A stretch of DNA of 64,000 nucleotides. Origin: Pedobacter aquae (GTDB taxonomy: Bacteria; Bacteroidota; Bacteroidia; Sphingobacteriales; Sphingobacteriaceae). The stretch is from NCBI RefSeq assembly GCF_008195825.1, contig NZ_CP043329.1:3348001-3412000 (forward strand), written 5' to 3'. The notes below the pieces were generated by a model that saw only the letters and a program-made list of their open reading frames with translations, was not told where the DNA came from and made no database searches. Positions 36,521 to 54,634 of this stretch are shown here, piece by piece; position 1 is the first letter of the stretch; every line of letters begins with the position of its first letter. The translations under genes and the position numbers were made by a program.

Positions 36521-36789
36521 AAAAATAATGAATAAAGTCCTGAACAATCCCCGCTGGAGCCTTTGCCGCACAAAGCTCTCCCACACTCAAAAACAGTGAG
36601 TGCTTATTTTTGCTCGGATGTGGTTTTTCAATGTTAGTATAAACTCGAACGCAAAACCGCATTCGCTATAGGCTTGGTTGTGCAAGATTTTTTAATTTCT
36701 GCTGCTGTTTTTTCGTCTTCCCAGCTCTGGGGGATTGCTCATGCACTTCGGTTTAGGCTGTTTTCTTATGAATGGTTGTTCCTTTCTAT

Positions 36790-37276
36790 CGGTAGAAAGT
36801 ACAGAGTATAAAGACTCCAAAGAGCAAATATTTAGGTGCTACCTCTAAAAACCAAACAATACTTTTCCGAAGAACGAAAGATGGCCTATGAATATTTGGA
36901 AGTGTAGGCAAATAAATCTTTTGCAAAAACTTTCATGAAGCAGTATCGGGAAACAATCCGACGGGTGTTGTAGAAGCTATCATTTAGCAAAACCATTCAC
37001 ACCACTCAGGATTGTGGATGAAGATTTATTTAGGCGAAACGACAAATATTCATGAGCCTTGCCTGCCTGCCGGTAGGTAGGAATTTTTGGGCACTTTTTT
37101 TTCAAGAAAAAAGTGCCTAGGGCAGGCCGCCTATGAGGCCGGAAAGCCTTGTGCTATACAACCAATTAGTTTATAATATCTTTAATCATAATAATCATTC
37201 TCCTCTATCGCTGGAAAGGTTCGTTCCTTTTGCGAAACCAAAAGGAACCAAAATGAAGCTTTAGCGAATTCTAGAA
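36790..37276. repeat. Degenerate repeat unit B (of three)
   Basis: Second copy of the unit in the same orientation. Its palindrome at 37062-37081 carries one substitution. It lacks the GAACTCGTTCCTCG segment, so it carries an internal deletion relative to A and C, but keeps the flanking landmarks. Confidence 0.7.
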
Positions 37277-37690
37277 AGTAAAAAGACCTAAAAAAGAGGC
37301 TATTTAGGAAGTTCCTTTGAAAATTATATATGCCTTACCAAAGAACGGTCTATGAAGATTTGGAAGTGTAGATAAATAAATCTTTTGCAAAAACTTTCAT
37401 AGAGCACTATCGGAAAACAATCCGATGGGTGTTGTAGAAACTTTCATAAAGCACAATCCTTCACACCACTCAGGATTGTGGCTAAAGATTTATTTAGACG
37501 GAACGACAAATATTCATCAGCCTTGCCTGCCTGCCGGTAGGCAGGATTTATTCATTTTTTGGTTATGGTTTTTCTTAGGCATTCATGAACTCGTTCCTCG
37601 TTTTTGGGGACTTTTTTTTCAAGAAAAATTGCCTAGGGCTGGCCGCCTATGAGGCCGGAAAGCCTTGTGTGTAAAGGCCAATACTGAAAA
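37277..37690. repeat. Degenerate repeat unit C (of three)
   Basis: Third copy, same orientation, palindrome at 37526-37545. It keeps a short open stretch that reads into the palindrome as CLPAGRQ, a peptide that appears only because the palindrome is translated. The end is GGCCGCCTATGAGGCCGGAAAGCC, shared with unit B. Confidence 0.7.
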
Positions 37691-38427: not shown

Positions 38428-38539
38428 TGTAGGGTGGTGAAATTGGCAGACACACCTCCTTGTCTCGGTGGCGAAGGTTTGGGAAATAGCAGCAATGTGA
38501 AATAACTACTTCGTGTAGGTTCGACTCCTACCCCTACAG
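38428..38539 (+). tRNA. Unusual tRNA-like gene with 42-nt variable arm and apparent GTC anticodon
   Basis: A cloverleaf can be drawn by hand. Acceptor TGTAGGG (38428-38434) pairs perfectly with CCCTACA (38532-38538), discriminator G. The D arm is GTG / CAC with a Leu-like loop AAATTGGCAGA. The anticodon arm is CCTCC / GGTGG (one T-T mismatch) with loop TTGTCTC, which places GTC at the anticodon. The variable arm runs from CGAAG (38472-38476) to CTTCG (38509-38513) with a 32-nt loop. The T arm GTAGG / CCTAC has loop TTCGACT. Long variable arms belong to Leu, Ser or Tyr tRNAs, not Asp, so identity is uncertain. CCA is not encoded. Confidence 0.65.
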
Positions 38540-38551
38540 CCCTTTCGTTTA

Positions 38552-38622
38552 ATTTAGGTTTATAATTGGTTAGTTTAAGCTCAGTTCTCCCCGTTCTGAG
38601 CTTAACTGTTTTATAGGGGTTT
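38552..38622. repeat. Left copy of 71-bp perfect direct repeat (candidate attL)
   Basis: Identical over 71 bp to 50809-50879. It starts 13 bp after the tRNA-like gene's discriminator base and contains a hairpin, TTAAGCTCAG / CTGAGCTTAA with an 11-nt loop (38575-38605), followed by TTTTATAGGGG. An integrase gene follows 168 bp later. The hairpin may also be the tRNA terminator, making that terminator the integration target. Confidence 0.75.
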
Positions 38623-38710
38623 GGTTACGTATTAAAACAAGCTTTTTTTATATTCCTAAATACTTCTAAATTCATAAAGATAATAGGCTTTTAAAGCTGT
38701 TTTAAAGCAC

Positions 38711-38736
38711 ATCATACTCCTAATCATACTACCAAA
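38711..38736. repeat. Candidate integrase arm-type sites
   Basis: Two adjacent copies of ATCATAC followed by a C/A-rich tail: ATCATACTCC then AATCATACTACCAA. An almost identical double site lies upstream of the truncated second integrase at 52378-52403, and a single copy (CCATACTACCAA) lies just inside the right repeat at 50740-50751. Repeated sites at both ends fit arm-type binding by a tyrosine recombinase. Confidence 0.45.
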
Positions 38737-38789
38737 TTTTTAGTAATTCTACTGCAAAAACTTCATAAACCTTCTAAAAACAAACGAAA

Positions 38790-39980
38790 ATGAATACACA
38801 TATATATTCTTTAAACCCAACTTGTACCCAACCCAGAGGTGTAGGCAAATCTGTAAAAGATAAATGGTATGTCTATTTCTATTATACTAATAGCAATGGA
38901 ATAAGAAAATCCTTTAAAAGTTATAAAGACCTAAACAATAAAAATCAAGATTTAAATCAGCGTAGAAAGTTATTAGCAGAAACCGTAGCAAAATTTGATG
39001 AATTGCTGAAAACCAAAAAATTTGATATTGAAACTGGAATATTTATAAAAACAGTATCAGAACAAGTATTAATAAATAATCTAATTGAAGATTACCTAAA
39101 ATTCAAAAAAGCCATTATAAGCCACTACACCTATTTAAATTATAACTCCTTATTTGAAAGATTCAAACTATCTGCTAAAGGATTAACCCTCTCCCAGATA
39201 GACCAACAGTTTATTAAAGACTTTCTGAAGAAAACTCCTGCTAAACCACAATCAAAAAGAAGTTATAGAACCTATGTATCAGGTTTTTTTAATTGGTTAA
39301 AAGATGAAAAGGATATTAATATCATTAATCCTACACATGGTTTAAGGTTAGACAGGAATGAACCTGTAGAAAGGCATAAAATCTATTCTAAAGAAGAAAT
39401 TAAAGCCATTATAGACTACTGTGATGCCAATGGTCATGTTATCCTCAAAACAATTATTTATTTAGTATACGGAGCTCAAATGAGGATTTCAGAGATACTA
39501 AGAATTCAGGTAGAAGATATAAATCTGGACTATAATAAAATTGTGCTTCCTAAAGGTAAAGGCAAGATTAAAAATAGGGAAAAGATTGTTCTGCTGGATG
39601 AGCCATTAAAAGTTTACCTCTTAAATATGGGACTTGATTTTAAGGATAAGGATAACCAGAAATTATATTTTATTGGTCAAAAGAGAGCTTATGATAAAGC
39701 CAAATTTTTTGGAAGATATCCTATTTCTAAAAACACCATTGATACCAGATTTAAACTGCTTAAAAAAGATCTTAATATTAGCCTGCATAAGACGCTTTAC
39801 AGCTTTAAACATACTGGTAATGTTAATCTTTTGCTAAGTGGAGCAGACCTTATAGAATTGATGTATAAGAACGGACATAAGAAGATATCACAGACAGAAA
39901 CTTATGCTAGACAGTTGATAGAACAAGTGCCAGAGACTAAATATATTAGGAAAAGTAGGGATGATCTAGATTTTAAGTAA
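38790..39980 (+). CDS. Tyrosine-type site-specific integrase
   Basis: A 396-residue tyrosine recombinase. An N-terminal arm-binding region begins with SLNPTCTQPRGVGKSVKDKW. A SAM-like core-binding domain covers about 110-200, and the catalytic domain about 205-390. The catalytic residues are Arg in QMRISEILRIQV, the HxxR-equivalent in YSFKHTG (a common Bacteroidota variant), His in NGHKKISQTETYA, and Tyr in the same stretch. It sits just inside the left 71-bp repeat and is the evident integrase of the element. A diverged, truncated relative starts at 52447. Confidence 0.93.
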   Translation: MNTHIYSLNPTCTQPRGVGKSVKDKWYVYFYYTNSNGIRKSFKSYKDLNNKNQDLNQRRKLLAETVAKFDELLKTKKFDIETGIFIKTVSEQVLINNLIEDYLKFKKAIISHYTYLNYNSLFERFKLSAKGLTLSQIDQQFIKDFLKKTPAKPQSKRSYRTYVSGFFNWLKDEKDINIINPTHGLRLDRNEPVERHKIYSKEEIKAIIDYCDANGHVILKTIIYLVYGAQMRISEILRIQVEDINLDYNKIVLPKGKGKIKNREKIVLLDEPLKVYLLNMGLDFKDKDNQKLYFIGQKRAYDKAKFFGRYPISKNTIDTRFKLLKKDLNISLHKTLYSFKHTGNVNLLLSGADLIELMYKNGHKKISQTETYARQLIEQVPETKYIRKSRDDLDFK

Positions 39981-40362
39981 TTTAGGACCTAATTTCATTT
40001 ATGATAAGTAAAATTAAACACCTACTTATATTTTTTTTAGCAGTATTTATTAGCTCTTGTAATCAAAAAAGTAAATCTGAAGAAATAGAGGAACTTGTAA
40101 TTTTTGGAAATTCTGGCTTCTGTCTAAAAGATAATAACGGGAACTCTTATTCTTCTACTTACTGGATTGATTGTGATTCATGTGATACTAAAGACCTGAA
40201 ATACGATTCAACTAAACTGGATATAAGGTTATATTTTGAATACAAAAAGGATGATCATACCAAAACTTCTATTAGAAAGCCTGAAAGTACAACTGAATAT
40301 TACATATTATCAGAACAAGAGACTCAAGGGTTTAAGAGTTTAATTAATTCTACTCTTCTTAG

Positions 40363-41380
40363 TAATAACCTGAGTTCGATTAATCAAAAAGCTAAGATTT
40401 GATTAGAATTAGCATTTTGATATTTAATTGAAGGTTTTTTAGGAAAAAAAGAATAGGCAATTAATGCGGCAATCATGTTGGATATAAAATTTGTAAAAGA
40501 CCTATGTCTTGAATGCTCAATTTGGCAAATGTTTTTTAGTTCATCGTTTACCGTTTCTATTACTGATCTTTTTCTAAGAGTAATCTTATCATTCATAGTC
40601 ATTAAGCTGTTTTTCATATTGTTACGAATGCTCGTAATTAGATGTATATCATTGACAAACAATATATTGGCTAGTTTCTCAGAAATATATCCCTTATCTG
40701 CGAATAGTTTTCCAAATACTGATTTCAGGAAGTTTTCATTTTTGAGCGGATCTCTGTCATCAACATTTGCCTGTGTAATTGCAAAGTTTAAAATTTCTCC
40801 TTTATCGTTGATTACAATGTGGAGCTTAAATCCATAAAACCAGCCCATTGTAGATTTACCTACCTCTGCAATGCCCTTAAATACCTTATTCCGTTTTATT
40901 CGCTTATTGTTACATACCCTAACTGGGGTTGAATCTACAAATGAAATACCGCTACAAATACCTAAACAGCAGGTCTTCAAAAATATGGTCATCGGCATAA
41001 GTATGCTTTGGCTAAGCTCAACAAAGCGATTATAAGAAACCGTTTTTGGAAATTCGGACTGCATGTGTCGTTGAATATAAAACAGATAAAAGTGCTTAAA
41101 GCACCTGAAACCACTAAGATGAAAGAATAGGCAAATCGATATAACCTCACTCTTGGACATCACTGGTGGTCGCTTAGAAGCTTTTCCCAGTAGAAAGGAA
41201 TGTGTATTGTTATCGAAATCTTTGCAAAATTCATCCACAAGACAAAAAATATCGCTAATTTTAGAGTAGTCAATCATATATAATTATAGTTAAGTATTTG
41301 ATTTTAAGACACTTAAATATAACTATTTTTATTATGATTGACTAATTTATTTTAAAATATTAATCGAACTCAGGTTAATA
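40363..41380 (-). mobile_element. IS982-family insertion sequence with 5-bp target duplication
   Basis: The element itself spans 40368-41375 (1,008 bp). It has 17-bp perfect terminal inverted repeats (ACCTGAGTTCGATTAAT at 40368-40384, its complement at 41359-41375). TAATA flanks it on both sides (40363-40367 and 41376-41380) as target duplication. Size, ends beginning ACC and one transposase gene fit IS982. Perfect ends suggest recent insertion. Confidence 0.88.
40384..41277 (-). CDS. IS982-family transposase
   Basis: A 297-residue DDE transposase. The N-terminal half has the family segment SKSEVISICLFFHLSGFRCF. The catalytic acids can be placed as D in ISFVDSTPVRVC, D in LFADKGYISEKL, and E in RSVIETVNDELKNICQIEH. 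The stop codon overlaps the inner edge of the left terminal repeat. Complete, so the copy may be active. Confidence 0.9.
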   Translation of the reverse strand: MIDYSKISDIFCLVDEFCKDFDNNTHSFLLGKASKRPPVMSKSEVISICLFFHLSGFRCFKHFYLFYIQRHMQSEFPKTVSYNRFVELSQSILMPMTIFLKTCCLGICSGISFVDSTPVRVCNNKRIKRNKVFKGIAEVGKSTMGWFYGFKLHIVINDKGEILNFAITQANVDDRDPLKNENFLKSVFGKLFADKGYISEKLANILFVNDIHLITSIRNNMKNSLMTMNDKITLRKRSVIETVNDELKNICQIEHSRHRSFTNFISNMIAALIAYSFFPKKPSIKYQNANSNQILAF

Positions 41381-41851
41381 AGTACAAAAATAAATATGCT
41401 CCCATAAAACCTATAGTTTATGATGGATGGACATATACTTTGTATTTTAAAACTTCTAAGGGAACGGAAAAGGTTATAAACTACATTCCTAACTATTTAC
41501 CTGATTCCTTAAAAACTTTGCATGACACATTAAGAGAAATAACACTTAAGCAATCTAAGGTAACCTCTGATAGTTTTAAATATCATGAAATTGTTAATGA
41601 TGAGTCTATAAAACAATATGTTAGTAATCCACCTCCTGTCTTACCTATAAAAGAACAAATTAAGTTCCCACTAGACAAATAGATAGATAAACGTTACAAA
41701 TTTTAAATTACAATTAGAAATTACCTGGATTTTAAATAATTCAGGTATTTCTATTTACAGGTTATGCTGTATTATGCTTTACTACTTTGATTTGAGATGG
41801 TTTAACCTGTTTAAAAGAAAAACCCATGAAATGTAGAGTAGATTTTAATCT

Positions 41852-43381
41852 CTAATACTTATTATCATTATATATGTAACCATTATCAATACATATTTCC
41901 AGAGCTTTTTTGAATACGTGAAATGGATTCGGATTAATATAAACTTCTGATTCAGAAATCTTACCAATAATTATCCCAGTATTATTGACTGCCTTTTTGA
42001 AATAGAAAGATAAACTATCAGTTTCCCAATCCTCTTTAACATCATAAACCAGAAAAATCCTCTCTCCAAATTCATTATCCACGCCTATTATTAAATCCTC
42101 AGTTATCTTAATATTCTTTCTTATATCTCTTATTTCAATAAAAAAGGGGATAGAGTAGGAAATTAAAAAATAATCATGATTCCAAATTACTTCTCTACTA
42201 GTTCCATAGTTAGAACTATAGTTATCACTTAAATCACCAATGATTCTGACAAAATCTTCAATTCTAGGAAAAAACTGACACATTATATTGGTCATGATTA
42301 ATAGAGGAAAATTGCTAACATGATAGCTTCTTCCCTTTACCTTTATTTCACAATCAGGAATAGAAAAATCAGTAAGCTTTTTCAAGTTCCTAATCCGAAG
42401 AATATCTTTATCTATGAATTTATAAGTTAATCTTAAAATATCACTAAAAAAATTGCTATCCTTATTTATCTTTCTATGCTTTGTGTTGCTATTTTCTATG
42501 AAAGAACTATCCAGATAATCGGAAATTTTTTCTTTTAAATACTGCTTGTGATTAAAAAAATATGGCTTATAAGAATAAAACTTATCTATATATCCTTCAA
42601 AATTTGATTTAGCTCCAAATTTATGATGGAACATATGTTCTATGTTTGGAATATCGCATACAAAAATAACTTTATCAAATCCAAACTTATTGGTATCACT
42701 TTTACTGTCATGATGAGCAGTAAAAATATTAAATAACCTAAAGGTGTGATCCGGATCTAACCTATCTAAATCGTCAATTACTAACACAAATTCTTTATTC
42801 TCTCTTTTAACCTTTATTCTTTTTAAAAAGTCTTGGATAAGGACAGTAAACTCATCTCGCTCTTTATATGAACCCTTTTTATATTCTATTGAGGTCATAA
42901 ATTTTAATAACTGTTCTACCTCACCTTCTTCAACATCTTTTTTAAAGCGTTTGAAATCATTAATCAATTCCTTTGTGTCCTTAATAATATCTACTAAACC
43001 CTCTATTTTAGGAAAGAACTTACTAAGTGAACTTAGAAATGGAAACAAGTTTAGTTTACTACTCACAAAGCTTTGAGCCAGTAATAAGTTTGAAAAATCA
43101 TCCTTTTTCAGATCTAGTTCTTCAAAATAATGGTCAATTAAGTAATCAAAAATATCGAACTTTATTAGTTCAAATATATCCTCGTTAGAGGCCACAGAAT
43201 AATCCACTGGAAATAAAGTTATTTTAAGATATTCTTGACTATTCTCGAAAAATTCGTTTAGGAAATATGATTTTCCACTTCCAAATGGCGCAGTAAATAA
43301 TACTCTTTTATTATCTTTTAGCTTCAAATGAATATTAAACAGCTCAAGTACTGAAGAATTGTCAACAATTATTTCTTCCAT
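41852..43381 (-). CDS. KAP-type P-loop NTPase
   Basis: A 509-residue protein with Walker A APFGSGKSYF (residues 31-40, K37) and Walker B FVLVIDDLDRLDP (198-210), the D-D-L-D-R pattern of the KAP/STAND side of the AAA+ class. A long helical insertion (about 85-160) separates the two, as in KAP ATPases. I see no clear membrane helices. The C-terminal 250 residues are not recognised. Bacterial KAP NTPases occur in mobile elements and some are in phage-defence contexts. It is divergent from the helicase-like gene with 112 bp between, suggesting shared regulation. Confidence 0.75.
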   Translation of the reverse strand: MEEIIVDNSSVLELFNIHLKLKDNKRVLFTAPFGSGKSYFLNEFFENSQEYLKITLFPVDYSVASNEDIFELIKFDIFDYLIDHYFEELDLKKDDFSNLLLAQSFVSSKLNLFPFLSSLSKFFPKIEGLVDIIKDTKELINDFKRFKKDVEEGEVEQLLKFMTSIEYKKGSYKERDEFTVLIQDFLKRIKVKRENKEFVLVIDDLDRLDPDHTFRLFNIFTAHHDSKSDTNKFGFDKVIFVCDIPNIEHMFHHKFGAKSNFEGYIDKFYSYKPYFFNHKQYLKEKISDYLDSSFIENSNTKHRKINKDSNFFSDILRLTYKFIDKDILRIRNLKKLTDFSIPDCEIKVKGRSYHVSNFPLLIMTNIMCQFFPRIEDFVRIIGDLSDNYSSNYGTSREVIWNHDYFLISYSIPFFIEIRDIRKNIKITEDLIIGVDNEFGERIFLVYDVKEDWETDSLSFYFKKAVNNTGIIIGKISESEVYINPNPFHVFKKALEICIDNGYIYNDNKY

Positions 43382-43493
43382 ATTAACTTATATCTCTTAA
43401 CTATTTACTAAAATAAACTTTATAACTTCTACTTCCCCCCTTAACTGAACATTTTACTATTTTACAGTCATTAATTACTAAAAACTAATATTA

Positions 43494-45455
43494 ATGAATT
43501 TAGATATAAAAGAAGAAGCCAAACATTTACTAATAACAGAAGAAAAAAAGGGAGTTTTAGAATTAACAATAAAGGATAACTCTAAAAAATTAGGAGAAAT
43601 ACTAAATTTCCTACCTCATGGAATTATTGATAAAACAGTAACTGGAATTGGAGCCACAACTTTAGAAATCTATTCTAAAAGGAATTCCATAATCGTAGTC
43701 CCACTAAAAATAATAGCTGCTTCTAAAGTTGAACAACATCCAGAGAACTGTTATTATGTTGGTAGTGCTATAAATAATTTTCAAACATTTGGTGAAGAGG
43801 CTTTTGACCTCTTTCTAACAAATGATAAGATTCCCTATAAGAACGTCATAGTAGTTGCAGAAAGCTTACCTAAAGTTATTAAAACCATTGGAGAAGATGT
43901 TTACAAGAATTATTTTCTACTAATAGATGAAATTAATACTATTCAGGAAGATTCTAAATTCAGAGAGACTATTGAAAATTGCCTAGATATATATTTAAAA
44001 TTTCCACCACAATCAAGAGCAATGGTTACTGCCACTATGATTAATTTTTCTCATCCAGAAATTGCTAAAGAACAAAAAACAACTATAAACTATGAGGAAC
44101 AAAAGCCTAATCTTATAGATGAATTTATAATGTCTTACAACACCCTGGGTGTTTGTATAGATTTAATTGAAAAATTATTAAAAGAACATCAGGATGCTAA
44201 AATAGTAATAGCTTACAACTCTGTAATAGGTTCAAAAATACTTGCGGAGGAATTGGTTCTTTCAAATCCAGAAAATGCCAAAAATGTAAGCATTCTTTGT
44301 TCTAAATCAAATAAAAAAAAAGCAGGCGTATTTTATGCCGAGCTTACTGGATTAAAATATCCAAGTAAAATAAATTTTATTACCGCAGCTTATTTCTCTG
44401 GGTATGATATTGAAGAACAGTACTACTTAATTAACTTAATTGACGAGAATGAAATATTTAGTAAAATATCAATAAATGCAGTTAGACAAATTGCAGGTAG
44501 AGCAAGAGAAGGTCTTCATAAACATTATATTGTATATCCATATTCTGAAAATGAAGAAGAATTAATAGAATATGTGGATGAAAAACAACTTTTAGATTTA
44601 GCAAAAGTAGAACTTAAATCAATAGAGTGTATCGAGAATAATTTTAAAGAATATCCATTTTTTAAAACTACAATGTTGGACATTCATAGTGCTGTTATTG
44701 ATAACGGAGGCTATAAAGGTTTTAAGCTTATCAGAAGGAACATTGAAAATGAAATAAACATATCATATTTTAATATTGATTCATATTTAGAACATCAAAA
44801 AACACAATATGAAGAACATGCTAGCTATAATTCATTTCTTAAATCGTTATCAAATAGCTTTTCAGTTCTACACGTACTTAATCTACAATCTCACCATGAA
44901 TTCAGTAAAGTAAAAGAAAGTAATTTGGACGTTGATCAGAGTATTAAAACTGCAATTGAAAATTTACAAAATATTACAACCGATAATGAAGCATATTATT
45001 TGTCTGTAAAAGCTGAGGATAATATTCAAAAAAAGGTTTACTTCATTTATGATAAGCTGTCAAAGTTCTACTATGAAAAAGAGACATTATTAGATAAAAT
45101 AGCGGAAGTAGCGAAGAAAAATTCTAAAGCCTTCAATATATTGAAATCAGAGGTTACACATAAAAGCTTACCCCCTTATCATCCACTTAAAAAATTTATT
45201 TTTGAATATTTTAAAGAAGGTGTAATATATAAATCCAGTGAAATTTTAGAGCTTTTAAATAAAGTACATGCTTTAGCCTCTACTAACCATAAGAAAATTG
45301 ATAGTGAATTAAAGGCTGTAGAAATTTTTAACTGTTATTTTGAAACTGTTAGAAAGAAGTACAATAATGGGTATTTATTGAAAAATTATATTAAACAAGA
45401 AGATTATTTAGATACAGTAATAAATAGAGATGAGAATAACATCTTTAGTTACTAA
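43494..45455 (+). CDS. SF2-helicase-like protein with lysine-less P-loop
   Basis: A 653-residue protein I cannot assign to a named family. The first 350 residues follow the SF2 motif order: TVTGIGATTLE at 48-58 (in place of GxGKT, without the lysine), LIDEIN at 143-148 (DExx-like), VTATM at 178-182 (motif III), TAAYFSGYD at 297-305 (motif V) and RQIAGRARE at 331-339 (motif VI). Residues 350-653 are helical and unassigned. Loss of the P-loop lysine makes ordinary ATP hydrolysis doubtful. Cargo of the element, divergent from the KAP NTPase; replication, regulation or defence are all open. Confidence 0.6.
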   Translation: MNLDIKEEAKHLLITEEKKGVLELTIKDNSKKLGEILNFLPHGIIDKTVTGIGATTLEIYSKRNSIIVVPLKIIAASKVEQHPENCYYVGSAINNFQTFGEEAFDLFLTNDKIPYKNVIVVAESLPKVIKTIGEDVYKNYFLLIDEINTIQEDSKFRETIENCLDIYLKFPPQSRAMVTATMINFSHPEIAKEQKTTINYEEQKPNLIDEFIMSYNTLGVCIDLIEKLLKEHQDAKIVIAYNSVIGSKILAEELVLSNPENAKNVSILCSKSNKKKAGVFYAELTGLKYPSKINFITAAYFSGYDIEEQYYLINLIDENEIFSKISINAVRQIAGRAREGLHKHYIVYPYSENEEELIEYVDEKQLLDLAKVELKSIECIENNFKEYPFFKTTMLDIHSAVIDNGGYKGFKLIRRNIENEINISYFNIDSYLEHQKTQYEEHASYNSFLKSLSNSFSVLHVLNLQSHHEFSKVKESNLDVDQSIKTAIENLQNITTDNEAYYLSVKAEDNIQKKVYFIYDKLSKFYYEKETLLDKIAEVAKKNSKAFNILKSEVTHKSLPPYHPLKKFIFEYFKEGVIYKSSEILELLNKVHALASTNHKKIDSELKAVEIFNCYFETVRKKYNNGYLLKNYIKQEDYLDTVINRDENNIFSY

Positions 45456-45478
45456 AATATAATATAATAATAAATCTT

Positions 45479-45537
45479 ATGGCATCTACTTTCTATTATA
45501 ATTTAAAATATAGATGGTAGGTGTCATTTTTATTTTT
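45479..45537 (+). terminator. Probable intrinsic terminator after the helicase-like gene
   Basis: GGCATCTACTTTCTAT pairs, with G-U pairs, with ATAGATGGTAGGTGTC across an AT-rich loop, then a T-rich tail. It separates the helicase-like gene from the downstream replication/recombination-like module. Confidence 0.5.
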
Positions 45538-45663
45538 AGTTTGTGTCTTTCTTTTTGAGCTTGCCTGTACAACTCTCCCCTCCATAACTTCACAGCTTGA
45601 TATACCCGTCATCTTGCTACAAAAAACTCATTTTATTCACTTTAAAAATTAAATCCAAAAATT

Positions 45664-46005
45664 ATGGTAACAGTAACTAATTATCTGCAAAAAGAAAATG
45701 CAGAGGGGAAAGCCTTTTTTATGCTAGAATTAACCGGAGAATTAGAAATTGTAGTTTCTCAAACAACAGGAAAGCCTTATGCTACAGTAAGGAAGGTAAG
45801 TATACCAACAACTCTTGATGAAAACATGTGCAAGTTGATGTTGGGAAAACAAATGCCTGGTCAAATAGCAAAAGTTGAAGTAGAAGAAGCATATGACTAC
45901 ACTAATAAAGAAACAGGGGAAGTACTCAGCCTAAATTATAGGTATGAATATTCTGCTACAGAAAAAGCACAGACTATGGAACAAGCTGTTTTTCAAGTAT
46001 CTTGA
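45664..46005 (+). CDS. Conserved small protein of the element's recombination module
   Basis: A 113-residue protein without a signal peptide. It is beta-rich with a hydrophilic middle; the segment SQTTGKPYATVRKVSIPTT looks like an OB-fold strand pair, but this is only an impression. It precedes a Sak4-like ATPase and a DUF3871 gene. In phages a single-stranded DNA-binding protein often occupies this place, so that role is possible but not supported by motifs. Confidence 0.6.
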   Translation: MVTVTNYLQKENAEGKAFFMLELTGELEIVVSQTTGKPYATVRKVSIPTTLDENMCKLMLGKQMPGQIAKVEVEEAYDYTNKETGEVLSLNYRYEYSATEKAQTMEQAVFQVS

Positions 46006-46036
46006 AGGTTTAGTATAAGTCAGAACTTAAGATTAT

Positions 46037-46072
46037 AAGGTGATATGTTATAAAAGCGTATCACCTTTTTTA
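46037..46072 (+). terminator. Intrinsic terminator or attenuator
   Basis: AAGGTGATA / TATCACCTT stem with 13-nt loop and a T tract, between the 113-residue gene and the ATPase. It may limit how much of the ATPase and DUF3871 genes is transcribed from upstream. Confidence 0.7.
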
Positions 46073-46091
46073 TTTAATAATTTTTAGAATT

Positions 46092-46925
46092 ATGGAAATT
46101 AGAAAAGCAGAAAGAAAAAGAGCCAAAATTAAAATGGCTTTACAAGGGAGTGCTGGTTCTGGTAAAACATTTAGCGCTTTATTAATAGCTCATGGTATCT
46201 CTACTGATTGGTCTAAAATTGTTGTTATTGATTTAGAAAATAATAGTGCTGATCTGTATTCACACTTTGGACACTATAATGTATTACCATTAGAACAACC
46301 TTATTCGCCAGAGAAATGTATTCAAGCATTAGAACTATGTGAGCAGGCAGGTATGGAAGTAATCATCATTGATGGTTTAACACCATGTTGGGAATATCTT
46401 TTGGATTTACATGCCAATATGAGTGGTAATTCATTTACAAATTGGTCTAAAATTACTCCCAGACAAAATGCTTTGGTAAATAAGATATTATCTATTCAAT
46501 CTCATGTGATTAGCACCATCAGGGTAAAACAAGACTACGTACTAAATAATAAGGATGGTAAAATAGTTCCTGAAAAAGTAGGGCTTAAAGCCATTCAAAG
46601 AGATGGATTAGATTATGAATTCACTATAGTGCTAGACATTGATAATAAACATCATGCAGTAGCTTCTAAAGACAGAACAACCCTATTTATGGGTAAACCT
46701 GAATTTACAATTAGCAGAAAAACTGGAGAAGATATTTTAAAATGGTGTAATGAAGGTATTGATGATACTAGCAATATTTTAGAACTCATTAAAAACGCCA
46801 ATTCCATTGAAGTATTAAAGGATATATATTTCTCCTATCCTGATTATCAAAATAGCCTATCAAAAGCATTTGCTAGTAGAAAAGAAGCACTTAATAAACT
46901 TGAACCCTTTAACCAAAAAACTTAA
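46092..46925 (+). CDS. Phage-type AAA ATPase (Sak4/RecA-like)
   Basis: A 277-residue RecA-fold ATPase. Walker A is GSAGSGKT (residues 19-26), Walker B VIIIDGLT (91-98), and the core includes VVIDLENNSADLYSHF at about 45-60. Length and order match the AAA_24 / Sak4 proteins that phages use for single-strand annealing or recombination. The next gene (DUF3871) starts 2 bp after its stop, so the two are coupled. This pair is commonly carried by Bacteroidota mobile elements. Confidence 0.8.
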   Translation: MEIRKAERKRAKIKMALQGSAGSGKTFSALLIAHGISTDWSKIVVIDLENNSADLYSHFGHYNVLPLEQPYSPEKCIQALELCEQAGMEVIIIDGLTPCWEYLLDLHANMSGNSFTNWSKITPRQNALVNKILSIQSHVISTIRVKQDYVLNNKDGKIVPEKVGLKAIQRDGLDYEFTIVLDIDNKHHAVASKDRTTLFMGKPEFTISRKTGEDILKWCNEGIDDTSNILELIKNANSIEVLKDIYFSYPDYQNSLSKAFASRKEALNKLEPFNQKT

Positions 46926-46927
46926 TT

Positions 46928-47890
46928 ATGGAACTATTAACAATTAATCCTCCTCCAATATTAAAACAATCTTCACAGAAATCTTTCATTGTTGCAAATA
47001 CCCTTGCATCTTCTTATCAGGAAATAAGAAATAATCATATTATCCCTGTATTCATTAAAGATAATGAGCCTGTTATATCACATGCAGATTTTATTGATGT
47101 TAGTAATGAGATTGTACATCATGTATTCCAAAATGAAACCATTTTAAGCCCTTCTATAAGGTTAAGTCATCCAATTAAAGGCAGAGTTCCAGAAGCTAAA
47201 AATAAGCCTGCTAATCAATTATTAGAAGAGGAAAAAACCATTTATTATGAAAGAATGGCTTTTGTTATTGAAGTACCTACCATAAGAGATACAGTTTCAG
47301 GAAATCAATTAAACCTGACTATAGGAGGTGTAAAATCTTATAATTTGGATAACCTCTACAGCAAAAAAGGGACAGATGAACATTTCAAAATCTTCATTGG
47401 GTTTGAAAATAAAGTATGTACCAATATGTGTGTATGGTCTGATGGCTTTATAGCAGATTTAAAGGTAAGGAGTATACATGAACTTACAGATGCTATTTTA
47501 AATCTGATTACCAACTATAATGCAAAACAGCATTTAGATAATCTGAATAAGTTTACCAATTACACTTTAACAGAAAATCAGTTTGCAGAACTAATTGGAA
47601 AATGTAGAATGTACAACTATCTACCACAAAATGCTAAACAGGAAATTCAACAGTTACTGTTTGGAGATACCCAAATTAATTCTGTAGCTAAAGACTATTA
47701 TAATGATAAAAGTTTCTGCAGATCTGCTAATGGAGATATTGATTTATGGAGGTTTTATAACCTTTTAACAGGAGCTAATAAGAGCAGTTATATTGATACT
47801 TTTTTAGATAGAGGACTGAATGCTTATGAGTTTACCAATTCTATTGTAAACGCTTTAGAATCGCCCAAAAGTAACTGGTTTTTAAATTAA
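46928..47890 (+). CDS. DUF3871 family protein
   Basis: A 320-residue protein of the Bacteroidota-specific DUF3871 family, recognised by SPSIRLSHPIKGRVPEAK, MAFVIEVPTIRDTVSGN, LTIGGVKSYNLDNLYSKKG and CTNMCVWSDG. The family has no known activity; its members occur in mobile elements beside Sak4-like ATPases. It is soluble, with a cysteine pair (CTNMC) near residue 165. Starts 2 bp after the ATPase stop. Confidence 0.82.
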   Translation: MELLTINPPPILKQSSQKSFIVANTLASSYQEIRNNHIIPVFIKDNEPVISHADFIDVSNEIVHHVFQNETILSPSIRLSHPIKGRVPEAKNKPANQLLEEEKTIYYERMAFVIEVPTIRDTVSGNQLNLTIGGVKSYNLDNLYSKKGTDEHFKIFIGFENKVCTNMCVWSDGFIADLKVRSIHELTDAILNLITNYNAKQHLDNLNKFTNYTLTENQFAELIGKCRMYNYLPQNAKQEIQQLLFGDTQINSVAKDYYNDKSFCRSANGDIDLWRFYNLLTGANKSSYIDTFLDRGLNAYEFTNSIVNALESPKSNWFLN

Positions 47891-47902
47891 CCCTGTTAAA
47901 AT

Positions 47903-48103
47903 GTGAAAGACATTATTTATACCCACAGTCTTTTAGTAGTAGATTCTAAAGGTCAAATTTTCAGAATATTTACTCCATTTTTAGTAATTGAAAAATTAAC
48001 ACAGCAGAAATACTGGGTGTCTAAAATAGTTTGGGATGCTTTTGGACTTCCTTATTTTGAAATAGAGGGAAATCTGGCAATTTATAGCAAATTTAAAATC
48101 TAG
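47903..48103 (+). CDS. Hypothetical 66-residue protein
   Basis: A small GTG-started frame 12 bp after DUF3871. The translation is plausible for a compact soluble protein (hydrophobic beta-like stretches alternating with charge, SKGQIFRIFTPFLVIEKL). It probably belongs to the same operon. No family is recognised, and with no ATG it could be a chance frame, though its codon use resembles its neighbours. Confidence 0.5.
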   Translation: MKDIIYTHSLLVVDSKGQIFRIFTPFLVIEKLTQQKYWVSKIVWDAFGLPYFEIEGNLAIYSKFKI

Positions 48104-48354
48104 TGAGCCTTAGTAAATCTACCAATAAACTTGATAAAGTATTTTCTTTATTTTATAACTTATTAGCATTAATATAGCCATTGTTAAAAATTCAGAGATA
48201 GAATACAAATGGATTTTATAAATTAGCTGAATAAATAAGGAAGATTATTAAGAGATATTAAATACATATTCGATTAAAATATAAGCGTTAACTAAAAGTT
48301 CTTGTAAGAAGAAACCTGAGAAATTTCAAAGTACAAACAAGAGCAGTTAGAATA

Positions 48355-48480
48355 ACGTCTCATGCTAATAAGCGTGGGGCGTAATCTATCTGTTTGTACG
48401 GGCTTCTCAGGGCCTCTTCTACAGATCAGGTTATTGTCCTGCGCTTATTGTATTATAAACCGCCGTTGTTGGGACTTCTT
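48355..48480. other. attC-like imperfect palindrome
   Basis: The gap 48104-48506 holds a roughly 125-bp folded segment. AATAAGCG (48367-48374) pairs with CGCTTATT (48442-48449). Inside, ATCTGT (48388-48393) pairs with ACAGAT (48421-48426), with imperfect pairing and unpaired bases between. Left edge AACGTCTCA and right edge GTTGTTGGGAC are partly complementary. Long imperfect hairpins with such edges resemble integron-cassette attC sites. It ends about 27 bp before the lipoprotein gene. The AT-rich part 48104-48354 shows nothing else clear. Confidence 0.4.
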
Positions 48481-48506
48481 TGGCAATAAAAAATCAATTT
48501 ATTTTT

Positions 48507-49271
48507 ATGAAAAAAGTTTTATTGTTAATGCTTACTGCATCAGCATTACTCGGTGCTTGTAAAAAAGACAAGGATGATTCAAATCCTGCAAATGGCTGTA
48601 AAATTGTAAAATTTACACCTTCTGGAGGGCATGATTATGTTAATTCAGAATATTTAATAACTTATAACTCAGATGGTAAAATATCCACGATTACAAATGC
48701 TGATGAAACTAGAAGATTTTCCTATGAGTCTAGTAAAATGCTGGTTAGTGTCGATAATCTATTGATTACCTACAATTATAATAGTCCAAACCAGATAAAT
48801 AGTATTATAACCAATAGTCAGTGGCCAGAGAATGTATCTGTTACTTATGCAGATAACAAAGTTTCTAAAATACTTACATCTGTAGACGACATCTCTTCAA
48901 CATTTACTTATTCAAGTAATGAAGTAGTTAAAATATTAGAAAAATGGGGAGATACAGATACAGAAGAGGCTTTAATAACCTACAAAGAGGAAAAATATTC
49001 AAACCCTTTAATCTTTGAATTGATATTTCCTTCAATGATTGACGGAGATATCAGGAATTTTATTAGATATAATTTATCCAATTCTTTTGGAGCTTCAGAG
49101 AAAAGACTAATTGATAAAATAGAATATATAGGCAAAGGAGACCGTAGTTATAATACTCGTACAGATACTTATTCTTATTTAAAAGATGATAAAGGGAATA
49201 TAATCCAAATCATTATTACTAGCACAAGTTATACCACAAGATCTTTTACCCTTGAATATAGCTGTAATTAA
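48507..49271 (+). CDS. Lipoprotein with YD-like beta repeats
   Basis: A 254-residue lipoprotein when started at the ATG at 48507; the frame opens at 48480, but this Met starts the signal peptide (MKKVLLLMLTASALLGAC). The lipobox is LLGAC with Cys at about residue 18. The mature protein has repeated short units such as YNSDGKISTITN, YNYNSPNQINSIITN and YADNKVSKILTS, as in DUF4595-like/YD-repeat lipoproteins, which form beta sheets. Function is unknown. It lies directly behind the attC-like site. Confidence 0.8.
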   Translation: MKKVLLLMLTASALLGACKKDKDDSNPANGCKIVKFTPSGGHDYVNSEYLITYNSDGKISTITNADETRRFSYESSKMLVSVDNLLITYNYNSPNQINSIITNSQWPENVSVTYADNKVSKILTSVDDISSTFTYSSNEVVKILEKWGDTDTEEALITYKEEKYSNPLIFELIFPSMIDGDIRNFIRYNLSNSFGASEKRLIDKIEYIGKGDRSYNTRTDTYSYLKDDKGNIIQIIITSTSYTTRSFTLEYSCN

Positions 49272-49284
49272 AATCTAATAAATA

Positions 49285-49455
49285 ATGAGAAAAGTAAAAA
49301 CCCTAATTATAAGAGCGGCTATATTATATGGTATAGCCGCTCTATTTAGTTTGTCATTATCAGTATATAATTGGAATACATTTTCTATATACTTCTTTAT
49401 TATCCTACTTGGTATGATAGCCACTGACATATTATTTAATTCAAAACATGATTAA
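49285..49455 (+). CDS. Small two-helix membrane protein
   Basis: A 56-residue frame from ATG 49285 to TAA 49453-49455. It encodes a basic start (MRKVKTLIIR) and two hydrophobic segments (about 11-28 and 34-50). Its end overlaps the next start by 8 bp, which supports a real, coupled gene. No family is recognised. First of five overlapping small genes. Confidence 0.6.
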   Translation: MRKVKTLIIRAAILYGIAALFSLSLSVYNWNTFSIYFFIILLGMIATDILFNSKHD

Positions 49456-49843
49456 CAGTTTAGTTATTAACTTAATAATACTGGCTATATGTCTTATTAT
49501 TAATATAGCCTATTTAAATAGTAAAGTTAACCGAATTCCTAACCACTATATTTTTAAATTAATTGGAAATATTAATACAATAGGAATTTTAATAATTATT
49601 ATCCTAATTGGTATTAAAGTATCTGTATGGTACGCTATTTTAACATTTGTAATTGCTTTAATAATATCTAGAATAGCACATGTGATTTTTAATGATTCTT
49701 TAACTAATTTAAAGCGTCAAATCAATGCAGTTGATCCAAACAGTTCTGAAAAATATAGTTTTATGAGTATTGCTATAATACCAATAAATCTATTTGCTAC
49801 TTATATTATAATACAAGCTCTTATAAATTTATTTAGAATGTAA
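49448..49843 (+). CDS. Membrane protein of the overlapping gene cluster
   Basis: A 131-residue protein with about four hydrophobic segments (near 5-24, 42-60, 62-84, 108-128) and a polar loop LTNLKRQINAVDPNSSEKYS between the last two. No family is recognised. It overlaps both neighbours (8 bp upstream, 1 bp downstream). Confidence 0.65.
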   Translation: MINSLVINLIILAICLIINIAYLNSKVNRIPNHYIFKLIGNINTIGILIIIILIGIKVSVWYAILTFVIALIISRIAHVIFNDSLTNLKRQINAVDPNSSEKYSFMSIAIIPINLFATYIIIQALINLFRM

Positions 49844-50178
49844 TGGGAATTATTTATTCATTTACTTGTGGTAAGTGTTCCTACCATAATGAAGAAGTCA
49901 AAATCGGAAATTCTAGATTAGGTTGCCATAATGGAGAAGATGATTATGAACTTGGAACATGTTCTGATTGCAAGATAATATTTGGTTATAATTGGCCATA
50001 TTGTCCTCAATGTGGAGAATGGAAAACTTCTATGAAGTCAAATATTAAATTAGTTTTAAAACTGAAGAGGCCTAAGTATACAGTGAAATTTCATAAAAGC
50101 AATGACGTGAAAATAATTCCCTGTCCAAAATGTAACCACGAATATTTAACCCCACATTTAAAATTGTTTTATGATTAA
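49843..50178 (+). CDS. Small zinc-ribbon protein
   Basis: A 111-residue soluble protein with three Cys pairs that could bind zinc: CGKC near 9-12, CSDC near 40-43 with CPQC near 54-57, and CPKCNHEY near 97. The central region is acidic and aromatic. It looks like a nucleic-acid or protein-binding zinc ribbon, but no known family was recognised. The first codon overlaps the stop of the membrane protein upstream, and 8 bp overlap the next gene. Confidence 0.65.
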   Translation: MGIIYSFTCGKCSYHNEEVKIGNSRLGCHNGEDDYELGTCSDCKIIFGYNWPYCPQCGEWKTSMKSNIKLVLKLKRPKYTVKFHKSNDVKIIPCPKCNHEYLTPHLKLFYD

Positions 50179-50494
50179 TATTAAACCCTATACCACCATA
50201 AAAACCATTTTAATAGCTTTATTACTCCTTTGTTTATTAAACCTCCCTTATGGTTTATATCAGCTTTTTAGAGTAATATTTACTATTGGCTTTGTATTAT
50301 TAGCAATTAAAGCAAATGAGGATAAAAAGCAAACGGAGTTAACAATTTTTATAGTACTGGCAGTATTGTTTCAACCTTTATTAAAGATTCCTTTAGGTAG
50401 AGAGATATGGAATATTTTAGATGTTGTTGTTGCTTTAGGATTGATTGTAAACTTATTTAAAACTTCCAAGAATGAAACCAGTTCAAATATTTAA
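50171..50494 (+). CDS. Membrane protein, DUF6804-like
   Basis: A 107-residue protein with three to four hydrophobic segments. The pattern LLCLLNLPYGLYQLFRVI followed by ANEDKKQTEL and PLGREIWNILDVVVALG resembles DUF6804 membrane proteins. Function is unknown. Overlaps the zinc-ribbon gene by 8 bp and the next gene by 23 bp. Confidence 0.65.
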   Translation: MINIKPYTTIKTILIALLLLCLLNLPYGLYQLFRVIFTIGFVLLAIKANEDKKQTELTIFIVLAVLFQPLLKIPLGREIWNILDVVVALGLIVNLFKTSKNETSSNI

Positions 50495-50720
50495 ATATTG
50501 TGAGCAGGAAGATTATAAACTTCCAGATACAGCAGATATAGATGTAATACCTCTAGAGTGCATTAATTGTATTTTAGATGATATACTTTCTACTTCTGAG
50601 AATATTAGAAAAGATTGGATTAAGCTATATAAGGATGGAAATATGCAATTACAATGTAGGTTAACAGGTAAAAAGCACCTTATTACTAAAGAGTTTTTTG
50701 ATAAAGTAAAATGGGATTAG
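50472..50720 (+). CDS. Small soluble protein, end of the overlapping cluster
   Basis: An 82-residue acidic protein (MKPVQIFKYCEQEDYKLPD) with a Cys pair in ECINC and a charged C-terminus. No family is recognised. Its 23-bp overlap with the DUF6804-like gene suggests coupled translation. It is the last gene before the right 71-bp repeat. Confidence 0.55.
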   Translation: MKPVQIFKYCEQEDYKLPDTADIDVIPLECINCILDDILSTSENIRKDWIKLYKDGNMQLQCRLTGKKHLITKEFFDKVKWD

Positions 50721-50808
50721 TACTATGTCCAACTACCAACCATACTACCAAACCCCCTTTATTTTTATTGGTTTATTAGCATTAAATAGCTTAAAAATTT
50801 AAAAAATG

Positions 50809-50879
50809 ATTTAGGTTTATAATTGGTTAGTTTAAGCTCAGTTCTCCCCGTTCTGAGCTTAACTGTTTTATAGGGGTTT
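50809..50879. repeat. Right copy of 71-bp perfect direct repeat (candidate attR)
   Basis: Identical to 38552-38622, including the TTAAGCTCAG / CTGAGCTTAA hairpin. It marks the right end of the 12.3-kb element. It is followed, after an ISL3-like insertion, by the start of a second related integrase, so it also looks like the left end of a second element. Confidence 0.75.
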
Positions 50880-50977
50880 CTATAACGCAAAAATCAACGC
50901 TATTGCCTTTATACTGGATCAAGCGTAAAAGTTGGGGAGGATTACAGATTTGATTATTTTTGTAGAAAATCAATGTT

Positions 50978-51340
50978 TTGGATTCTACCTTACTATCATT
51001 AATCTTACCCGAAGGTCTTAGCGAATACTTTGAACTGGACAAAGTAGAGACTGTATCGGATTCTTATTACATCTATCTTAAAGAAAGGAATATACAACCC
51101 AAAGAGTTCACCGCTCAAAAGTTAATTTCTAAGGGTTTTTTCGAAGAGATTTCTGTCAGAGACTTTCCCTTACGCGGAAAACCTTGTTTTTTAAAGCTTA
51201 AAAGGCGGAAATGGATGATCGTAGAGACAGGAGAAATCGTATTTAGAGATTGGAATTTGGTAGCAGAAGGGACAAAAATGACTCAGGAGTTTGCCTTTTT
51301 TTTTGAGAGACTATTTGGATTCAAGCCCAATAAGCTGTAA
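50978..51340 (+). CDS. ISL3-like transposase, N-terminal reading frame
   Basis: A 120-residue frame starting at TTG. It carries the helix-turn-helix and zinc-ribbon-like N-terminal region (FPLRGKPCFLKLKRRKWMIV). It ends 49 bp into the next frame. A run of nine T at 51296-51304 lies in the overlap and may be where RNA polymerase or the ribosome changes frame, as in other two-part transposases. Confidence 0.75.
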   Translation: MDSTLLSLILPEGLSEYFELDKVETVSDSYYIYLKERNIQPKEFTAQKLISKGFFEEISVRDFPLRGKPCFLKLKRRKWMIVETGEIVFRDWNLVAEGTKMTQEFAFFFERLFGFKPNKL

Positions 51341-52299
51341 AACACTTGGAAGATTCTTTGGAGTTGAGGGTAAACGACTGCAAGAACAGTATGTAAGCCA
51401 TTTGAGTGACTTTATGAGTTGGGATCAAGCTGAACATGCTCAGGACTGGTTGCTTTTTCCAGACAACCTTGGTGAATATCTATCTATTGATGAGACCAGC
51501 CTTTCACAAGGGGAACTATATACCATTGTTACCAATAAAGCAGCAAAAGGCAAAAAAGGTGCTTTGGTTGCTATTGTAAAAGGCACAGAAAGTGAAACGG
51601 TTATAAAAGTTCTGTGCCGTATAAAAGAATGGGCGAGAAAAAAGGTAAAAGAGGTCACTCTTGATCTAGCTCCCACCATGGCTAAGATCGTACGAAGGAG
51701 CTTTCCAAAAGCAAAGCTTGTCTCCGATAGATTCCATGTGCAACAGCTAGCCAGCGAAGCTGTTCAGGAAATCAGGATAAAACATAGATGGGATGCTATT
51801 GAACAGGAAAACAAGGAAATGGATCTTGCTAAAGAAATAAAGAAGCCTTGGATTCCAGAATTATTAGAAAATGGAGATACCTTAAAGCAATTATTGGCAA
51901 GGAGCAGGTATTTACTGTTTAAGAAAAGAGGTGAATTGGACATCGTCCCAAAATCATAGAGCAGAACTGTTGTTTAAACGATATCCAGATTTACAGAAAG
52001 CCTATGAAATCTCCCAGGAGTTGTCCTCTATATTTAGCCGTTCAAAAGACAGAAGAATAGCTTTCAAAAAGTTGGCAATATGGTATAATAAGATAGAAAA
52101 ACTAGGTTATAAACCCTTCAATACCATAGCTAGAACCATTCAGAACAATTATGAAACCATATTGAACTATTTTGATAACAGAAGCACAAATGCATCCGCA
52201 GAATCTTTCAATGCCAAGATAAAAGCTTTCAGATCGCAGTTCAGAGGCGTAAGAAATGTGAAGTTCTTCCTCTTTAGACTAGCTAAAATATACGCTTAA
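51291..52299 (+). pseudogene. ISL3-like transposase catalytic part, frameshifted
   Basis: The catalytic region is split over two frames, 51291-51959 and 51931-52299. The first carries D in YLSIDETSLSQGELYT and D in VTLDLAPTMAKIV. The third catalytic residue, E in NASAESFNAKIKAFRS, is in the second frame. The two join at KKRGNWTSSQNHR if one base near 51930-51936 is removed. As it stands the protein lacks its Glu, so this copy is probably inactive, unless the frameshift is a sequencing artefact. Confidence 0.75.
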
Positions 52300-52377
52300 T
52301 GTCTCCTCCCCAACTTTTACGCTTGATCCTTTATACTGGTGTTTGTTGTTTTGGAAATATTAGGTTTAAATATCAGC

Positions 52378-52403
52378 ATCATACCATTAATCATACCACC
52401 AAC
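52378..52403. repeat. Second set of candidate integrase arm sites
   Basis: ATCATACCATT then AATCATACCACCAA, nearly the same as 38711-38736 and at a similar distance before an integrase start. Supports the idea of two related elements in tandem. Confidence 0.4.
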
Positions 52404-52446
52404 ATTCCTTCAACATCATTAATTAACCTTCTAAAGAACAAACGAA

Positions 52447-52626
52447 ATGAGTATACAAACATACTCACTCAATCCTTTTTGTACCCATCCAAAAGGAGTT
52501 GGTAAATCTGTAAAAGATAAATGGTATGTATATTTTTATTATTCCAAGATTCAAGGAGTAAGAAAACTTTACAGATCTTATACAGATTTAAATAACATGC
52601 ATCAGCATGCTTACCCAAGTTTATAA
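52447..52626 (+). pseudogene. Truncated second integrase
   Basis: An ATG-started frame of 59 codons whose first 50 residues align with the integrase at 38790. Both have GVGKSVKDKWYVYFYY, for example, but with many other differences, so it is a diverged relative and not a recent copy. It stops at a TAA just as the sequence becomes similar to the T9SS tail at 54449. The recombinase catalytic domain is absent. Confidence 0.8.
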
Positions 52627-52735
52627 AAGAAAAGCATTTCAATAGTAGAAACCGGGTTACATTTGATTTAAATATTAGGATGCTGGTTAATTATTTAATA
52701 TCTTTAGAGGGTATAGCGATTGTAATGAAACAGCG
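52624..52735 (+). pseudogene. Relic of a T9SS C-terminal sorting domain
   Basis: About 100 bp resemble 54449-54545, the sorting tail of the secreted protein. Shared stretches include ACATTTGATTTAAA, GGATGCTGG and TTAGAGGG. No open frame remains. It abuts the truncated integrase, so a recombination joined the two fragments. Confidence 0.65.
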
Positions 52736-52764
52736 ATCAAAGCCTGTTTTAAATAGTGGTTTAT

Positions 52765-52891
52765 AAAAGAGGCTGTCTCAAATTACCGTTTTGTGTCAGG
52801 CTGAGCGGAGTCGAAGCCTTTTCTAAGCATATCAGAGAACATTTCGACTCCGCTCAATGTGACAGATACTATTTTTGAGACAGCCTCTTTT
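52765..52891. repeat. MITE-like palindrome
   Basis: An 18-bp perfect terminal inverted repeat (AAAAGAGGCTGTCTCAAA, 52765-52782, and its complement 52874-52891) encloses an inner pair GAGCGGAGTCGAA / TTCGACTCCGCTC. No coding frame. It resembles short palindromic elements common between genes in this phylum. Confidence 0.7.
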
Positions 52892-53009
52892 TTGTTTTTA
52901 CAGCTTTTTTAGCTCAGCTAGTATAATCTCCCGACATTCAGTCAGGAATATAATAAATGGTTTAAACTTTAATAATAAAATTAAAAATAAGTTAAAATAA
53001 ATTAGATAA

Positions 53010-54577: not shown

Positions 54578-54600
54578 ATTTAACCTTAAAATATTTACAA

Positions 54601-54634
54601 CAACCAGTACCCGAAAAGTACTGGTTTTTTTATT
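54601..54634 (+). terminator. Intrinsic terminator after the T9SS gene
   Basis: AACCAGTAC / GTACTGGTT stem with a 7-nt loop and a T tract. The remaining stretch to 54960 is AT-rich with no other clear feature. Confidence 0.8.

Follow-up and report, generated by a model that had tools for sequence, protein, structure and literature searches.

The integrated island and its chromosomal site

A 12.26-kb element flanked by direct repeats lies in the window examined here, a 64,000-nucleotide stretch of the Pedobacter aquae genome (RefSeq assembly GCF_008195825.1, contig NZ_CP043329.1, positions 3,348,001 to 3,412,000 of the forward strand). A reading made from the letters of the DNA alone (hereafter referred to as the sequence-only reading) had described an integrated element of 12.3 kb, bounded by perfect 71-bp direct repeats and carrying a tyrosine integrase gene just inside the left copy, and these features were all borne out. 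The two repeats (attL, 38552–38622; attR, 50809–50879) are 100% identical and start 12,257 bp apart. No other exact repeat in the window is as long, the next being 59 and 43 bp. A third perfect copy is absent from the 3.85-Mb genome, which contains two further matches at 86% and 80% identity. The integrase encoded at 38790–39980 (forward strand) matches Pfam Phage_integrase (3e-19) and has 55% identical relatives in genomes G023 and G029. The G+C content of the element is 28.9%, as against 34.7% and 36.2% in its flanks.

Three things had escaped the sequence-only reading: a tRNA-like target gene, the remnant of a sibling element behind the right repeat, and a class of islands to which the element belongs. 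The target of integration is the tRNA-like RNA gene (38428–38539, forward strand), and 12 nt separate its 3′ end from the left repeat. It scores 35.2 bits against the Rfam tRNA model, for which the curated threshold is 29, and it was not detected by ARAGORN at default settings. Its anticodon-loop letters are UUGUCUC, and its long structured variable arm retains pairing despite base changes, as judged by eye on alignments. The gene is near-identical across the genus and in G023, the region of the anticodon arm being nearly invariant there. The 71-bp repeat itself corresponds to a conserved terminator-like hairpin region downstream of this gene.

The congener G013 carries an empty site. Its left flank aligns to window position 38628 and contains one 71-bp copy with no insert; 48 bp beyond the end of this alignment, similarity to the window resumes at 54783 with 95% identity. 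Therefore, the stretch 38622–54783 is extra in the window. A 26-nt core of the repeat is present in a single copy in each of the 12 other fetched sites (12 of 12; stretches of 12–20 kb each), and on this ground the idea that both repeats are old native ones was rejected. A search of 59 other relatives did not find the DUF3871 gene of the element; this result and the empty site of G013 led us to reject a chromosomal origin of the insert. Thus, neither of the two outcomes that had been named beforehand as speaking against insertion, namely both repeats without the insert in a relative, or conserved chromosomal content, made its appearance. G009 retains, beside the same site, the final 52 codons of the 82-residue gene found in the island (92% identity), likely as the scar of a close relative of the window island.

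The DNA absent from G013 runs past the right repeat to about 54783. The segment 50880–52620 (forward strand) comprises an ISL3-type insertion sequence (IS; inverted ends at 50910–50941 and 52304–52335) and part of a second integrase gene (52447 onward), of which ~55 codons from the start are present; over 186 bp, its DNA sequence is 72% identical to that of the first integrase gene. In our reading, an older sibling, now decayed, used the same site, and this segment is its left end; elements would therefore have accreted here. Further DNA absent from G013 follows at 52621–54782 and includes a secreted-protein gene at 53010–54386; the gene appears to extend over 53010–54577 and to be split into two frames near 54386. 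In G023, which belongs to another genus, the same lrp/tRNA-like locus carries an integrase with 55% identity and a helicase, and the 80-bp repeats on either side of them are 14.06 kb apart. An island of this kind is also present in G013, not at the window's site, which is empty there, but in a tRNA-Arg gene, where 71-bp repeats bound it.

The window element has direct end repeats, a one-copy empty site in a relative and a site-specific recombinase of its own. Taken together, the empty site, the repeats, the sibling in another genus, the sibling remnant and the class membership described below show, by comparison of genomes, that it is an integrated island.

Several observations concern the surroundings of the site. 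The tRNA-like gene represents a conserved RNA family. Its model, at E <= 1e-6, has matches in 149 of 151 family genomes; the weaker matches may represent ordinary tRNAs, and tandem arrangements of strong copies are found in some genomes (G021, G086). The anticodon arm of the window gene contains ACCUCCUU (38454–38461), the anti-Shine-Dalgarno letters. A second conserved locus of the genus (L050–L057) shares the terminator module, which there lies behind two small hairpins and with no tRNA-like gene; the 86% repeat match at G000:C1:171637, considered as a further insertion site, proved to be this second locus and was rejected. G002 has a second, diverged lrp/tRNA-like/terminator region (L049, G002:C1:4180000–4199500). 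Elsewhere in the window, three related noncoding repeat copies of several hundred bp, 63–89% alike, occupy 36020–37686, and a RelB/RelE-like pair, named by eye from its sequence, lies at 54961–55507, where a single stop codon interrupts the RelE-like frame.

Gene content, hallmark helicase and island class

Between the repeats, the integrase gene is followed by a lipoprotein gene split by an IS, as the sequence-only reading had it. The 5′ part of this gene (40001–40402, forward strand) is interrupted by an IS at 40363–41380 on the reverse strand, which has 22-nt inverted ends (40363–40384 and 41359–41380) and encodes a DDE_Tnp_1_3 transposase (40384–41277). Family matches were obtained for the KAP NTPase, the Sak4-like ATPase and the DUF3871 protein that had been proposed. 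The KAP NTPase gene (41852–43381, reverse strand; 2.3e-11) is a possible defence gene, the matches of its product to the anti-phage KAP models (PifA, QatA) being weak and partial (PADLOC PDC-S20, 2e-5; PifA, 4e-4). The gene of the hallmark helicase of superfamily 2 (SF2) type, in which Walker A lacks its lysine, occupies 43494–45455. It is followed, likewise on the forward strand, by the genes of a 113-residue protein (45664–46005), the AAA_24/Sak4-like ATPase (46092–46925) and the DUF3871 protein (46928–47890; 9e-121), which has relatives in 13 loci. In related loci, too, the gene of the 113-residue protein lies ahead of the Sak4-like one; we can only guess that this protein has a role like that of single-stranded DNA-binding protein (SSB). 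These three genes occur together in 9 of the 13 loci found with DUF3871, the other four being partial or devoid of one of them. The predicted fold of DUF3871 (predicted local distance difference test score, pLDDT, 69) gave no PDB match at E <= 0.001, and its sequence had none in PDB either.

Downstream on the forward strand are a structured noncoding element (48281–48484), a lipoprotein gene directly 3′ of it (48507–49271) and the expected five overlapping small genes (49285–50720), which encode a 56-residue protein, a 131-residue membrane-like protein, a zinc-ribbon-like protein, a DUF6804 protein and an 82-residue protein. As the sequence-only reading had stated, no relaxase, capsid or terminase was seen among the window proteins in the family scans, in which several proteins matched no family at all; nor were type IV secretion genes seen among the scanned window proteins.

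The sequence-only reading had called the product of 43494–45455 helicase-like, in line with the only Pfam signal, DEAD at 0.001; this lies below the cut-off and appeared in 2 of 13 members of the family, with no Pfam family above the cut-off. Members comprise about 600–650 residues. Invariant among the 13 are lysine 47, GxGxT (53, 55), E58, D145-E146, A180-T181 and Q332/G335-R336/R338, and in none of them does a lysine follow the glycine of GxGxT. The predicted structure (mean pLDDT 56.4, better in the core) gave 192 Foldseek matches at E <= 0.001, of which the best was BLM (1.6e-8). The protein thus resembles SF2 helicases (RecQ/BLM, DEAD-box) in its predicted core fold, DE box, A-T of motif III and QxxGRxR motif, but differs from them in that its invariant lysine stands upstream of GxGxT, with none after it, and in that no Pfam model scores above the cut-off. 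Relatives of the helicase are found on Acinetobacter plasmids, in phage records (22–26% identity) and on large viral contigs of 68–204 kb, where an alignment query of viral_contigs gave 12 loci (L117–L122 and L126 among them). Because the family occurs on viral contigs of up to 204 kb, these results suggest that it has been exchanged with big phages.

Relatives of the helicase were counted at E <= 1e-8 in 400 Sphingobacteriales genomes, the genome of the window included, and occurred in 63 of them. As a sample of the class, we used 23 loci: 20 fetched helicase regions, L061 and L062, which are relatives by integrase, and L114 from B. finegoldii. The search for the gene order elsewhere, which the sequence-only reading had proposed, found an integrase, belonging to one of two families, upstream of the helicase in 22 of the 23 loci, L093 being the exception. 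Repeats of 47–205 bp bound 9.2–15.7 kb in 12 of the loci, and ARAGORN placed a tRNA gene at 9 of these 12 islands. RadC, present in 11 of the 12, is usual but not defining.

To describe the cargo, we scanned 116 open reading frames (ORFs) of at least 85 residues from the 12 repeat-bounded islands, excluding the integrase and helicase families. Besides RadC, the Pfam matches included TIR, CAP12-TIR, SLATT, SIR2, DndB, methylase, ABC-type and ResIII domains (12 of 12 and the best 25 of 29 families), and a ThsB-like protein was also present. PADLOC models were matched in numbers of 92 and 169 (the best 25 of each listed), and the PHROGs matches were to DNA repair proteins, methylases, transposases and replication initiation proteins (13 of 13 and the best 25 of 54). 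No capsid, portal, terminase or relaxase was among the matches listed for the 116 proteins.

Comparison of these loci shows a class gene order of integrase, variable genes, helicase, structured element and cargo. The window island has its integrase upstream of the helicase and its structured element downstream on the same strand; between integrase and helicase, it carries the IS-split lipoprotein gene and the KAP NTPase gene. It is a member of a widespread and apparently unnamed class of small islands with an integrase, the helicase and often phage-defence genes. No description of this class, or of the structured RNA, was found in the open-licence PMC papers searched.

The structured element ahead of the cargo

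The hairpin at 48281–48484 had been taken in the sequence-only reading for an attC-like site. We found instead a structured element, common to 18 of the 23 related islands, that occupies a fixed kind of place. It is about 205 nt long, and in L098, L099, L104 and L105 stretches with 70–73% identity to it precede lipoprotein genes. An initial profile built from these four and the window found the element in most other islands. The search model used thereafter (R2) was built on the first RNAalifold structure and misses several helices of the better alignment; it served for searching only, and the loop pairing was judged separately. Rfam 15 contains nothing that matches 48281–48484 at E <= 1. In seven islands, Rfam at curated scores gave tRNAs only, and L098 at E <= 10 gave two chance matches.

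The most distinctive feature of the element is a pairing between two hairpin loops, which in the window read CCUGAG (loop 1, 48315–48320) and CUCAGG (loop 2, 48406–48411). The loops are complementary over 7–9 bp with no mismatch in all 21 aligned members used for the model, which have eight different loop sequences. As a control, loops of different members were combined; their pairing reaches 6 bp in 26 of 262 combinations. A further 36 distinct sequences had no part in the model, and 35 of them kept the pairing, with L176 as the exception; the cross control among the 24 strong ones of these gave 24 of 402. It crosses two other helices of the element.

The proposed structure was compared with 500 shuffles, which do not keep relatedness, and was itself derived from the same sequences; with these limits, covariation exceeded all 500 on three measures. 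Thus, 85.5% of cells pair as compared with 81.2% in the shuffles (beyond 500 of 500), and 55 cells are changed on both sides as compared with 22.0 (again beyond 500 of 500), slid versions of the structure reaching 23. For the strand AGCGUGGGG, two alternative pairing partners are available, one upstream and one downstream (seen by eye, not counted), an arrangement that would suit a switch.

The position of the element relative to its neighbours was also examined. The 18 class loci in which it was found have one strong copy per island and helped to build the model. Outside the genomes from which the model was built, 32 of 47 helicase loci have a same-strand match of at least 101 bits within 12 kb downstream. 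Conversely, 51 of the 93 matches of at least 101 bits have an upstream helicase from the E <= 1e-8 list, at a distance of 0.6–5.5 kb in 50 of the 51, and more sensitive searches placed a helicase upstream in 9 of 10 strong cases. The distance from the 3′ end of the element to an ATG-started ORF behind it was determined for 38 strong loci, that of the window among them: it was 13–37 nt in 31, −1 in one and 158 in two, and no ORF was found in four. The ORFs behind strong elements differ from island to island and are unrelated to one another; usually they encode a secreted protein or lipoprotein, with a signal-like N-terminus in 28 of the 38 by a crude hydrophobicity rule.

RNA-family matches at E <= 1e-4 occur in 231 of 400 Sphingobacteriales genomes and, at E <= 1e-6, in 24 of 296 genomes across the phylum. 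The genome of the window has a second, weaker copy (62.8 bits) at G000:C1:131000–131191 (L178), outside helicase islands.

Proposed account, alternatives and known systems

The overall description of the element given by the sequence-only reading holds as regards an integrated element with attachment-site repeats, whereas its attC reading of the hairpin was not borne out. Our best reading of the structured element, from its sequence and position, is that it is a 5′ leader RNA controlling cargo, because it ends at a short, set distance before a start codon, often that of a signal-bearing protein. That the hairpin is an integron-type attC, or another folded-strand recombination site with exchangeable cassettes behind it, seems very improbable to us: like integron attC sites, it is a long imperfect hairpin ahead of varied, unrelated genes, but at ~205 nt it has another length, its conserved loop-loop pairing crosses two other helices, it occurs as one strong copy per island rather than in arrays, and the island integrase scores far below the integron integrase cut-off (integrase_gron, 60.9 bits as compared with 265). 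We also doubt, though less strongly, that it acts as DNA, as a replication origin or packaging site. Such a role would agree with the presence, in each island, of one copy in a set orientation 3′ of the helicase gene; the position of the element, however, tracks the start codon (13–37 nt in 31 of 38) and not the helicase (0.6–5.5 kb in 50 of 51), and relatives of the element occur outside islands.

How the island moves between cells can be asked in the same manner. A phage satellite, packaged by a helper phage in the manner of P4, the phage-inducible chromosomal islands (PICI) or the phage-inducible chromosomal minimalist islands (PICMI), is a serious possibility, which we put somewhat short of even. 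The size of 9–16 kb, the tRNA sites, the integrase, the island's own helicase and the defence-type cargo all agree with it, as do the helicase relatives on the 68–204 kb viral contigs and in phage records; however, no capsid, portal, terminase or capsid-remodelling family was among the matches listed for the 116 cargo proteins or among the window proteins, and DUF3871 and the window helicase, as single queries of viral_contigs, gave no confirmed relative. Bacteroidota are rich in integrative and conjugative elements (ICEs) and mobilisable units, and the island may instead be an integrative mobilisable element that uses conjugation machinery in trans through an unrecognised origin of transfer (oriT) or relaxase. 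The helicase relatives on Acinetobacter plasmids would be in keeping with this, and the passages of PMC11389934 that deal with ICEs and mobilisable units call them numerous in Bacteroidota and name NBU1. No relaxase family was seen among the island proteins, in scans that included no oriT search, and we regard this alternative as rather unlikely. A satellite or a mobilisable island, as the sequence-only reading had suggested, would fit what is known.

We think it probable that a single account, that of a site-specific integrative island with steps of excision, replication, leader control, cargo expression and transfer, covers these findings. The integration is well supported, and the remaining steps are inferred. 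The island would have entered behind the tRNA-like RNA gene by means of its own tyrosine integrase, and the same integrase may recombine the two 71-bp sites to release the island as a circle. This circle could be copied or repaired by the helicase together with the SSB-like, Sak4-like and DUF3871 proteins. The ~205-nt element may form the transcribed 5′ leader of the first cargo gene, whose expression it would control by loop-loop pairing and alternative stems. As cargo, probably directed against phages, the island would carry the KAP NTPase together with the membrane or secreted proteins. Transfer would depend on a helper phage or a conjugative element, because the island is without machinery of its own.

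Several points weigh against this account. Long repeats are lacking from the fetched stretch in 11 of the 23 loci and the structured element from five of the 23, and in the window island, neither RadC nor the pair of ORFs commonly seen between the integrase and helicase genes is present. The KAP NTPase matches defence models weakly, and the helicase model has a mean pLDDT of 56. Weak members of the RNA family (60–106 bits) are often away from helicases, with a helicase nearby in none of 11, and only 5 of the 11 end 2–20 nt before an ORF start. In a strand test on the helices, G-U cells outnumber A-C cells by 161 to 34, but shuffled columns give 181 and 54.

Beyond the single island, we lean towards a broader proposal: an unnamed, capsid-less and relaxase-less class of Bacteroidota islands would be built around an unclassified, lysine-less SF2 helicase, the loop-loop switch of its signature RNA would gate the first cargo gene, for example at phage infection, and this RNA would come from a larger family that also exists outside islands. 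Many genomic islands have an integrase but no visible means of transfer; the class described here is a countable set of such islands, and its helicase and RNA provide two handles for experiments on packaging, mobilisation and regulation in soil bacteria that can be cultured. A loop pairing rewritten many times just ahead of defence-type cargo would, if the proposal is true, represent a new family of regulatory RNA and possibly a sensor.

Among known systems, phage satellites (PICI, capsid-forming PICI (cfPICI), PICMI, P4 and tycheposons) are likewise small integrase islands with tRNA-type sites, a replication-type protein and defence cargo, as described in part in PMC11389934 and PMC10803314; in the window class, by contrast, no packaging, capsid-remodelling or terminase gene was seen, and the hallmark helicase is a different one. 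Charybdis, as presented in PMC12324425, is a different element from the window island. The NBU-type mobilisable elements of Bacteroidota (NBU1 is named in PMC11389934) share the tyrosine integrase, the tRNA sites and the lack of a transfer apparatus, whereas the window class, in which no relaxase was found, has the helicase and the structured element instead. The structured element differs from riboswitch-like and other leader RNAs with loop-loop contacts in that Rfam 15 gave no match and in that its strongest form is carried mainly by mobile islands, but it resembles them in its length of ~200 nt, its conserved loop-loop pairing and the nearness of its 3′ end to a start codon.

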